From Bacteroidota bacterium (GTDB lineage Bacteria; Bacteroidota; Bacteroidia; NS11-12g; UBA955): a DNA stretch of 64,000 nt. The notes beneath the pieces were generated by a model. That model was not told the origin of the DNA. It ran no database searches and saw only the letters and a program-made list of their open reading frames with translations. Made by a program: the position numbers and the translations under genes. Positions 20,306 through 23,080 of this stretch are shown here, in pieces. The DNA lies in the NCBI GenBank assembly GCA_024103355.1, contig JAGFIU010000044.1:1-64000 (forward strand), read 5' to 3'. Position 1 is the first letter of the stretch. Every line of letters starts with the position of its first letter.

Positions 20306-20378
20306 GATTTTAATATAAGTATTGATTTGCTTGAACACAAAATGAGAATATATCACTTCAAAAGTATTGAAATAAAAC

Positions 20379-20407
20379 AAAAAAGGGGCTGATTCAGCCC
20401 CTTTTTT
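20379..20407 (-). terminator. Bidirectional rho-independent terminator after azurin
   Basis: The GGGGCTG/CAGCCCC stem (20385-20391 with 20395-20401) closes a 3-nt loop and is flanked by A and T runs on both sides. The U tract reads correctly downstream of the azurin stop on the minus strand. Confidence 0.9.
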
Positions 20408-20425
20408 AACCTTTATTTTTTTCTT

Positions 20426-20965
20426 TTATTCTACAATAAATTTACCTTTCATTAAAGCAGCATGTCCTGGAAATGAACAAAGGAAATCATAACTTCCTTT
20501 TGCGGGTGCAGTAAACTCAATTACATCGCTCTCTCCACCACCAATAAGTTTTGTGTGTGCAATGATATTGCTTAAATCTTTTTCAGGTATGTAATCAGTT
20601 GCTTTAGCTGCAATAGCATCTTTTGAAAAAGTAACCATGTCTAAGCCTTGAGCTAACAAGACAAAATTGTGTCCCATAACAGTTTTAGGAGCTTTTCCAA
20701 CATGTTTAAGTGTTAGTTTTACAGTTTGCCCTTCTTTTACTTTGATTTCAGAAAGGTTGAACTTCATTTGGTCATTACCTTCGATAGTAACTTCAGCAAC
20801 CGCAGGAGCAGTTGATTCAGCAGGTGCAGTCTCTGTTTCAGTTTCTGCAGGAGCTGTTGTTTCAGTTGTCTCTGGTGTTGTCTCTGTAGTTTCTGTAGTA
20901 GGTGCGTTGTTGCAAGCGGCAAATAAGAATGCTAAACTTGCTAATGTTAAAATTGATTTTTTCAT
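20426..20965 (-). CDS. Azurin-type blue copper lipoprotein
   Basis: Azurins carry electrons in the periplasm, often to cytochrome c peroxidase or nitrite reductase. The 179-residue precursor has a lipobox LFAAC (Cys18), so it is membrane-anchored. A low-complexity linker of Thr, Glu, Pro and Ala spans residues 22-55, and the cupredoxin domain about 58-179. Type-1 copper ligands are visible: His99 (MGHNF), Cys163 and His168 (FLCSFPGHA) and Met172 (LMKGKF). It is the last gene of the Rrf2-methyltransferase-RIC cluster, 40 nt downstream of RIC, and ends at a strong terminator. An electron-transfer role in nitrogen-oxide or peroxide stress is inferred from these neighbours. Confidence 0.92.
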   Translation of the reverse strand: MKKSILTLASLAFLFAACNNAPTTETTETTPETTETTAPAETETETAPAESTAPAVAEVTIEGNDQMKFNLSEIKVKEGQTVKLTLKHVGKAPKTVMGHNFVLLAQGLDMVTFSKDAIAAKATDYIPEKDLSNIIAHTKLIGGGESDVIEFTAPAKGSYDFLCSFPGHAALMKGKFIVE

Positions 20966-21005
20966 TTTGATTTATATTTTTGATTTATAAAGGTTTCCGT
21001 TTGTT

Positions 21006-21725
21006 TTATGCCATTTGTTCCTCCATTGCTATTGACTTTGGAAATAGAATGTTGTTCTCCAAATGGATGTGCAAATGTAAATCTTCTTCAAATTCATGCA
21101 ACATTAATAGTGTGATTTTATAGGTATTACATCCATCAGATGGAACTGTATAGTTGTCTGTAAGTTTAGAAATTTCTCTAAATCTCTCTCCTTCTGTATC
21201 ATGTTCTTGCATCATTACATTAATAGGTCCCGCAACACTACCAATTGGAGAATCAGATTTTGTATTATTTAATTTTGCCTGAACCATTTTTCTGATAGCA
21301 GGAAACAACATTAGTTCCTCTTTCTTCATGTGTCTGGCAAGTTCACCAACTGACTCTTTAAACAGGTGTTCAACTTTTGCTAATTCAGGATGTCTTTCTC
21401 CGTGCACTCTGACAATTTTTTCCAAGAAAGGCATTATCTCTCTTGATTTGTTTTCTACATAGCGATGATGTGTTTTTTCTATGTAATCAGCGAGTAAATC
21501 CAATGGCCATGAGTTGTAGTCGATATTAGAGCCGGCTTTATTATGTGCGGCTTCTTTGAGCGCATTTATTAATGGCTCAACAGCAATATTATCTTGTTGA
21601 CATACTTCAGCTATTGAACGATTCCCATTACAACAGAAATCGATTCCTTGTTGTTTAAATACTGAGGCTACACGGTAGTCTTGTGCTACCAAATCCCCTA
21701 CGATTGTGTCTTTTGATATTTCCAT
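21006..21725 (-). CDS. ric: Iron-sulfur cluster repair di-iron protein (RIC/ScdA/YtfE)
   Basis: RIC proteins restore iron-sulfur clusters damaged by nitric oxide or peroxide. This one has 239 residues, the usual length. The N-terminal ScdA domain has the Cys31-Cys32 pair in IDFCCNGNRSI. The C-terminal hemerythrin-like domain has the di-iron ligand segments KTHHRYVENK, VHGERHPELAKVEHLFKE, HMKKEELMLFPAIRKM, MMQEHDTEG and LHIHLENNILFP. It lies 22 nt downstream of the methyltransferase in a four-gene run led by an Fe-S-type Rrf2 regulator, a context that suits NO-inducible repair. Confidence 0.95.
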   Translation of the reverse strand: MEISKDTIVGDLVAQDYRVASVFKQQGIDFCCNGNRSIAEVCQQDNIAVEPLINALKEAAHNKAGSNIDYNSWPLDLLADYIEKTHHRYVENKSREIMPFLEKIVRVHGERHPELAKVEHLFKESVGELARHMKKEELMLFPAIRKMVQAKLNNTKSDSPIGSVAGPINVMMQEHDTEGERFREISKLTDNYTVPSDGCNTYKITLLMLHEFEEDLHLHIHLENNILFPKSIAMEEQMA

Positions 21726-21747
21726 GATTTTTTTAGTTTGATTCGGT

Positions 21748-22518
21748 TTAAATTTTTTCTGCTATAATCGCAATAGAGTTCATTTGTTTATCGTATTTTT
21801 TAAATACTCTTTTCATCTCATTTATTCTCATTCGGGCCGGCTTGTTCTTCAATATATTAAATGTGATTTTTAATGCACGCCAAAATCCCTCATCATCAAA
21901 AATACGTTTGCTTTCTAGCAAATGCATCGCATTGGTATAGACTTTTTTGATTTTAAATCCCTCTTTTTCCAATAACGTTTTCCATTCATCTTCGGTTAGG
22001 GGTCGTGCATTTACTTTAATACAAAGTGCGAGATCGTGTTGAATAGTGCTCTTTTCTTCTTCAGTTACATTAACCAAACCCAATTCGTGAATTGCATACA
22101 ATCCTCCTTTTTTTAGAATTCTGTGTGATTCCTTTATGATTTCAGATTTTCTATGGTCTGCATGCATTGTGAGCATAGCTTCACCATATACTTTATCTTT
22201 TGAATCGTTTTCAATATGAGTTTCTGAAGCCTGGCCAAGAATAAACCGGATATTATTACCCTTTATTTTTTGTTTTAGAAGTTTAATAGCATCTTCATCT
22301 GCATCAACACCAATATAGGTGTGAGGGTTTCTTTCCAATGCTAGTGATGCGGTAAAACCCAATCCGGGCGCAAATTCAACTATATCATCTTCATGTTTTA
22401 TATCTAATCCGTTGACTAACTTTTGAGTTAATTCTTTTCCTCCGGGTCGCAATACTCTTTTACCCATTTTGGCTAAAATCCAATGTCCCTGAGCTCTTGA
22501 ATAATCTGTTACATCCAT
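21748..22518 (-). CDS. Class I SAM-dependent methyltransferase
   Basis: 256 residues with the Rossmann-type methyltransferase core. Motif I is VEFAPGLGFTASLALE (about residue 48), the acidic ribose-binding residue is in TYIGVDADE, and the later motif VYGEAMLTMHADH is followed by ESHRILKKGGLYAIHELGL (post-motif III). The substrate is not evident; it could be a small molecule. It lies 33 nt after the Rrf2 gene and 22 nt before ric, so it belongs to the same transcript. Confidence 0.85.
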   Translation of the reverse strand: MDVTDYSRAQGHWILAKMGKRVLRPGGKELTQKLVNGLDIKHEDDIVEFAPGLGFTASLALERNPHTYIGVDADEDAIKLLKQKIKGNNIRFILGQASETHIENDSKDKVYGEAMLTMHADHRKSEIIKESHRILKKGGLYAIHELGLVNVTEEEKSTIQHDLALCIKVNARPLTEDEWKTLLEKEGFKIKKVYTNAMHLLESKRIFDDEGFWRALKITFNILKNKPARMRINEMKRVFKKYDKQMNSIAIIAEKI

Positions 22519-22551
22519 AATTCTTATATTATCGTTTTCTCTTTATTATTA

Positions 22552-22986
22552 TTAATGCTTTAAAAAAGTCAACCCTTCCGTTAATCCGTTTGCTAAATCC
22601 AATATACTTGTTGTTTCTAACATCCTCTTTAATTCTTCACGAATATTCTTAAATCTTGAATGTACGGGACATGGCTTACTGTCATTACATTCTTCCAATC
22701 CTATTCCACAACTCTTATAAATATCATCACCATCAAATGCTTTCACAATATGACTAAGTCTCAAGTTATTCATATTTTCAGTGGTGATTTCAAATCCTCC
22801 GCTGGGACCCTTTATTGACTGAATAATTTTATTCTTTGAGAGTTTTTGAAGAATTTTCGCAGTAAATGCTTTAGGAGAGTCTATATTCTCAGATATATCA
22901 TTCAAACTCACTCTATTCCCATTATTTGAGTTTGATGCAATATAAAGTGTAGCTTTTATTCCGTATTCACAAGACTTTGAAAACAT
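22552..22986 (-). CDS. Rrf2 family transcriptional regulator, probable Fe-S sensor
   Basis: 144 residues from the ATG at 22986, chosen because Rrf2 proteins begin with the M-F-S-K-x-C-x-Y-G-type helix seen here. The winged helix spans about residues 2-75 (ISENIDSPKAFTAKILQKL recognition region, wing GPSGGF). Cys93, Cys100 and Cys106 lie in the C-terminal loop with spacing close to that of the cluster-ligating cysteines of NsrR and IscR, so it probably binds a [2Fe-2S] or [4Fe-4S] cluster and senses NO or redox state. It leads the methyltransferase-RIC-azurin run and may repress itself through the promoter at 23008-23038. Confidence 0.9.
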   Translation of the reverse strand: MFSKSCEYGIKATLYIASNSNNGNRVSLNDISENIDSPKAFTAKILQKLSKNKIIQSIKGPSGGFEITTENMNNLRLSHIVKAFDGDDIYKSCGIGLEECNDSKPCPVHSRFKNIREELKRMLETTSILDLANGLTEGLTFLKH

Positions 22987-23007
22987 CGTTTCGGTTTTTG
23001 ACGGGTG

Positions 23008-23038
23008 CAAAATTATGCGTAAATTCTATTTCGGACAA
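23008..23038 (-). promoter_or_regulatory. Complete -33/-7 promoter for the Rrf2-RIC-azurin operon
   Basis: On the minus strand TTG (23038-23036), a 20-nt spacer and TAATTTTG (23015-23008) match the Bacteroidota promoter in both elements and in spacing. The start site would fall near 23002, giving a leader of about 15 nt before the ATG at 22986. No clean palindromic operator was recognised by eye. Confidence 0.65.
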
Positions 23039-23080
23039 GAATATCCTAAATTATTTTTTAATCATTCTAAATAAGGATTG

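Follow-up and report, generated by a model that had tools for sequence, protein, structure and literature searches.

A probable nitric oxide-response operon in Bacteroidota with a predicted Fe-S repressor, a conserved palindromic operator and a rare methyltransferase

NsrR, an NO-sensing repressor of the Rrf2 family found in E. coli, Neisseria, Bacillus and Streptomyces, is among the described systems closest to the locus reported here, with which it has the Rrf2 fold, three cysteines and target genes in common. IscR has three cysteines followed by a CxxH motif, and its palindrome has GAC/GTC cores. Members of the Bacteroidota are often met as partial denitrifiers in sludge, sediment and biofilm, and NO sensing in this phylum is poorly described. 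The NsrR regulon comprises ric/dnrN, hmp, nirK and NO reductase genes (Rodionov et al. 2005, PMC1274295). In clade II nos clusters, including those of Bacteroidota, Rrf2 genes lie beside denitrification genes, but no operator, regulon or methyltransferase is described for them, and such regulatory knowledge is limited to Proteobacteria and Firmicutes (PMC6264515). Relative to the known NsrR regulon, the predicted regulon has globin, HTHP, azurin and methyltransferase genes in addition, and no description of the gene combination was found in the literature searched. The operon analysed here lies in a stretch of 64,000 nucleotides of a Bacteroidota bacterium (the window), with the following features:

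20378..20408, minus strand: intrinsic terminator at the operon end, with a 14-pair stem, 6 G-C pairs and a T-rich tail
20426..20965, minus strand: azurin, probable lipoprotein (179 aa)
21006..21725, minus strand: RIC/ScdA/YtfE di-iron iron-sulfur cluster repair protein (239 aa)
21748..22518, minus strand: class I SAM-dependent methyltransferase, MT (256 aa; PF13649/PF08241)
22552..22986, minus strand: Rrf2-family regulator (144 aa; ATG start)
23008..23038, minus strand: Bacteroidota-type promoter TTG-N20-TAATTTTG, with the −33 TTG within the operator and TAATTTTG as the −7 element
23028..23051, minus strand: 24-bp palindromic operator ATTTAGGATATTCTTGTCCGAAAT, overlapping the −33 element, 41 bp before the Rrf2 ATG

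An earlier note on this DNA had described four same-strand genes with gaps of 33, 22 and 40 nt between a −33/−7 promoter and a strong terminator, and this layout was confirmed in coordinates and strands, including the 14-pair stem behind azurin. The Bacteroidota promoter consensus is of the −33/−7 type, and the operon promoter, read on the minus strand, fits it. A TTG at 23010, upstream of the ATG, is also possible as the start of the Rrf2 gene. Gene order and control site are identical in another genome of the same genus (L097), and in 32 of 80 MT loci the next gene downstream of MT, on the same strand, is RIC. The arrangement is therefore not due to chance, and the adjacency, whose absence from relatives would have refuted the note, is conserved.

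The regulator matched PF02082 (1.2e-22) and, among NCBIfam models, passed only the superfamily model TIGR00738. It thus combines the Rrf2 fold with three cysteines as candidate cluster ligands, as NsrR does, but scored 34.4 bits against the NsrR equivalog model NF008240 (cut-off 182) and 67.2 bits against the IscR equivalog model TIGR02010 (cut-off 207.55). The cysteines noticed earlier at positions 93, 100 and 106 are present and followed by a CxxH histidine (H109), which is extra relative to NsrR; all four residues are invariant in the 24 aligned Rrf2 homologues, so that the loss of cysteines which would have refuted the earlier note was not seen. The resulting arrangement, C-x6-C-x5-C-x2-H plus E7 close to the N-terminus, mixes features of NsrR and IscR. 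We predict that the protein is an NsrR-like Fe-S repressor of its own operon, and we infer its cluster type, the binding of the cluster and the sensing of NO. Given an IscR-like CxxH motif in a protein outside the NsrR equivalogs, Fe-S status or oxygen could act as the trigger just as NO could.

The palindrome at 23028-23051 is an addition to the observations of the earlier note. Its pattern, ATTTMNGAYANNNNTRTCNKAAAT, was found by aligning the regions upstream of 28 Rrf2 relatives near MT genes, and differs from the NsrR operator gATGyAT-N5-ATrCATc. It precedes Rrf2 in 23 of these 28 loci, mostly 38–45 bp from the start codon, and overlaps the promoter; the note had proposed to look for such a conserved operator upstream of Rrf2 orthologues. 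Three of the five loci lacking it hold a different Rrf2 subgroup (MLSxTC...) in a different operon. The operator contains the −33 element (TTTG or TTAT), followed 18–22 nt on by an exact −7 box TANNTTTG in 19 of the 23 loci; on this element a repressor would block RNA polymerase. The operator may be new, although this is not certain: it was not found in the open literature searched.

The genome has exactly two Rrf2 genes and exactly two perfect sites, one beside each; the other genome of its genus has kept the two sites as well. Their half-sites differ (ATTTAGGATA vs ATAAAGGACA), and the half-sites among operators are of two types, ATTT and ATAAA. Whole-genome searches with one or two mismatches gave many chance matches, with controls equal to the observed numbers in several genomes; only sites directly upstream of genes were therefore taken as support. 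A blind search with the strict pattern in 395 genomes of the phylum found the site in 8 genomes, as against 2 for a reversed control pattern. Of the seven strict sites outside the genome of the window, three stand in front of Rrf2 operons that include globin, cbb3 or RIC, two in front of azurin and one in the interval from Rrf2 to tryptophanase (L121); the seventh has no clear reading. In 29 ric loci picked without regard to MT, 12 sites were found in 107 kb, compared with none in shuffled sequences and none with the reversed pattern; several Flavobacteria-like ric loci had a site upstream of Rrf2 as well as a second one upstream of ric. Rrf2-ric pairs with an operator-like palindrome before each gene were also observed in genomes without MT (L127, L130, L143 and L152).

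The second perfect site precedes a NOR-like pair of heme-copper oxidase subunit II and I genes (L092:5435-7464), with narG and the genes of an NnrS-like protein and of a long DUF2249-RIC protein close by. The HPxxY tyrosine that is usual in subunit I is absent (GHTIANESLYL), and the pair is, judged from its sequence, a candidate Bacteroidota NO reductase of the oxidase type. NO reductase families of the oxidase type are named in PMC11388526. The long protein (L092:10504-12501, contig C29) has 665 aa, in which about five DUF2249-like repeats precede a ScdA_N/hemerythrin RIC-type part, and stands in a gene run with Rrf2, DUF59, the NnrS-like protein and DUF1858. Among relatives that carry MT, the genes behind such sites include hmp, nirK, globin, Rrf2-ric, Mrp-type Fe-S carriers and a DUF2249 protein, named according to our reading of the sequences. 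The genome's own nirK and norCB-like genes have no operator upstream when up to two mismatches are allowed. Genes such as hmp, nirK and ric are classical targets of NO regulators. As predicted from sequence, the palindromic operator thus resembles that of NsrR in standing before NO detoxification genes (hmp, ric, nirK, globin, NOR-like), and these together with azurin point to NO and nitrite. A concrete operator and regulon make NO regulation in Bacteroidota testable at once, and the operator can serve to trace NO-related genes without an assigned function across this phylum. One protein of unassigned function, with its N-terminus around FHIPVMGLAYTIDTPIKVA, lies directly behind the operator in two different genomes (L179 and L180).

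The organism is a probable partial denitrifier from nitrate to nitrous oxide, since its genome carries narG, a copper nitrite reductase gene nirK above the cut-off (L176:7149-8276), a norC/norB-like pair (L093:6539-8231) and the NOR-like oxidase, and no NosZ above the cut-off. In this last respect it differs from the clade II nos clusters. The RIC of the operon, with ScdA_N (PF04405) and Hemerythrin (PF01814) domains, passed the equivalog model TIGR03652 (241.8 bits, cut-off 204.7), and the azurin passed TIGR02695 (117.8 bits, cut-off 105.1). The azurin signal ends in LAFLFAAC, which is of the lipoprotein type, and the best solved relative is the lipid-modified azurin 3ay2. Azurins are established electron donors to nitrite reductase, and by analogy this protein would be a natural donor to the nitrite reductase of the same organism.

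We consider it likely, with a probability of roughly 80%, that the four genes form an autoregulated NO-response operon of a partial denitrifier with narG, nirK and norCB-like genes. Without NO, the Fe-S-loaded Rrf2 protein would bind the 24-bp palindrome and block the −33 element, keeping the operon low. NO arising from the cell's own nitrite reductase or from neighbouring organisms would damage the cluster, upon which the repressor would leave and all four genes would be expressed. RIC would then repair NO-damaged Fe-S centres, azurin would supply electrons to the copper nitrite reductase, to an NO reductase or to both, and MT would modify a small molecule important under nitrosative or denitrifying conditions. 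The nitrosative-stress unit proposed in the earlier note is supported, since hmp, nirK, ric, azurin, globin and NOR-like genes all stand behind the operator, with the qualifications that the regulator is not an NsrR equivalog, that it would sense NO only by prediction, and that MT is an accessory.

If the regulator mainly sensed Fe-S status or oxygen, in the manner of IscR or SufR, the operon would be a unit for low oxygen or Fe-S maintenance rather than for the response to NO. The system has the Rrf2 fold and a palindrome with GAC/GTC cores in common with IscR. In favour of this explanation, the Cys3-xx-His arrangement is as in IscR, and IscR is the regulator's best PDB match in a single-sequence search; moreover, Mrp-type Fe-S carriers stand behind the operator in two genomes (L182 and L186) and cbb3 oxidase genes in some others. 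We nevertheless regard this explanation as unlikely, because the same operator precedes hmp, nirK, globin, azurin and the NOR-like oxidase, and the regulator, unlike IscR, goes with NO and denitrification genes. No isc genes were seen, and none of the sites that were read is followed closely by the start of an isc or suf gene; a one-mismatch site inside a sufB-like gene in L184 looks like chance.

The earlier note singled out MT as the novel part of the unit. MT passed no NCBIfam cut-off, it is linked to the system by its adjacency to RIC and by the operator at the head of its operons, and it is the clearest candidate among NO-related genes of unknown function. It is conserved across an alignment of 47 members, all of which matched the DVU_1556 methyltransferase family (NF045667), although the window protein itself remained below the cut-off (64.2 bits, cut-off 155) and is not a member. 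An AlphaFold2 model (pLDDT 91.9) was nearest to the solved folds of PMT, TleD, RebM and AtmM. Since these are small-molecule methyltransferases, protein or RNA substrates are less likely, and judged from the model MT probably acts on a small molecule. The nearest solved fold is that of phosphoethanolamine N-methyltransferase (PMT; TM about 0.66–0.73, identity 16–18%). This likeness is one of fold only, and a phosphoethanolamine methyltransferase is not favoured; a non-His residue stands at the PMT catalytic His position in the profile alignment, which is of low identity. An ArsM arsenite methyltransferase was rejected, given that the window protein has no cysteine and scored 38.9 bits against PRK11873 (cut-off 263). 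A siroheme-type methyltransferase lies beside NsrR and ric in Bacillus cereus; this type belongs to a different class and was rejected for MT, which matches class I only. The NsrR-ric region of B. cereus is the subject of PMC8151001.

MT is found in 6 of 395 genomes of the phylum and in 2 of 57 relatives, both of the genus to which this genome belongs. Homologous loci in named genomes number 74, nearly all in Bacteroidota, with a few in Ignavibacteriota and one in a haloarchaeal record. RIC occurs anywhere in the locus in 41 of 80 MT loci. The operator leads the operon of MT in 26/80 loci, compared with 181/973 for other genes of the same loci (p = 0.003), a contrast that is understated because the comparison genes include the rest of the same operons; 46 of the 80 loci have neither the operator lead nor RIC directly downstream. 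Where MT is the first gene, the operator stands directly before it (L015, L023, L030, L034 and L062); L030, from Taishania pollutisoli, has the order operator-MT-RIC. In the tree group of MT, which has 30 members and weak support, 27 are operator-led or RIC-adjacent. RIC is present in 5 of 6 MT-bearing genomes vs 136 of 389 others (p = 0.02), whereas only 5 of 141 RIC-bearing genomes have MT. NirK above the cut-off was found in 11 of 26 genomes with MT vs 4 of 50 without (p = 0.0007), in sets that we chose ourselves and whose species are not independent. We conclude that MT is a rare accessory and not a core part, yet firmly linked to operator and RIC loci. Tentatively, it may be a new kind of nitrosative-stress enzyme of Bacteroidota that methylates a small metabolite and is controlled by an undescribed NsrR-like regulator which has an operator code of its own; candidate substrates would be, for example, a metabolite otherwise made toxic by NO or nitrite, or a compound derived from tryptophan.

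Common partners in a longer form of the operon are a group III-type truncated haemoglobin, HTHP, a 149-aa membrane protein and a TDO-family protein (PF03301, tryptophan 2,3-dioxygenase), whose gene, where present, is always immediately upstream of MT (11/11 loci). In L177, L121 and L034, tryptophanase-like genes follow or adjoin the operator or are neighbours of a related Rrf2 gene. Together with the TDO genes this placement hints, at the level of sequence, at a link between NO response and tryptophan metabolism. A refinement compatible with the NO-response operon is that the substrate of MT is a metabolite derived from tryptophan and that MT belongs to the same pathway as TDO or tryptophanase. 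The 11 TDO loci, the tryptophanase gene behind the operator in L177, the site between Rrf2 and tryptophanase in L121 and the resemblance of the fold to indole-alkaloid methyltransferases, among many others, would agree with this; we consider it quite improbable, as the fold similarity is generic, the surroundings of the operon in its own genome contain neither TDO nor tryptophanase, and both genes may be present for other reasons. That MT is a mere passenger without a role in the response, as its rarity and the homologues of Capnocytophaga and others outside such loci might suggest, is very improbable in view of the frequency of RIC directly downstream and of the operator lead, the operator of its own when it is the first gene, and the weakly supported tree group.

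The haloarchaeal homologue (L077) is 51% identical to MT and occurs in a metagenome-assembled record of Haloquadratum walsbyi, where it is either a lateral transfer or a contaminant.
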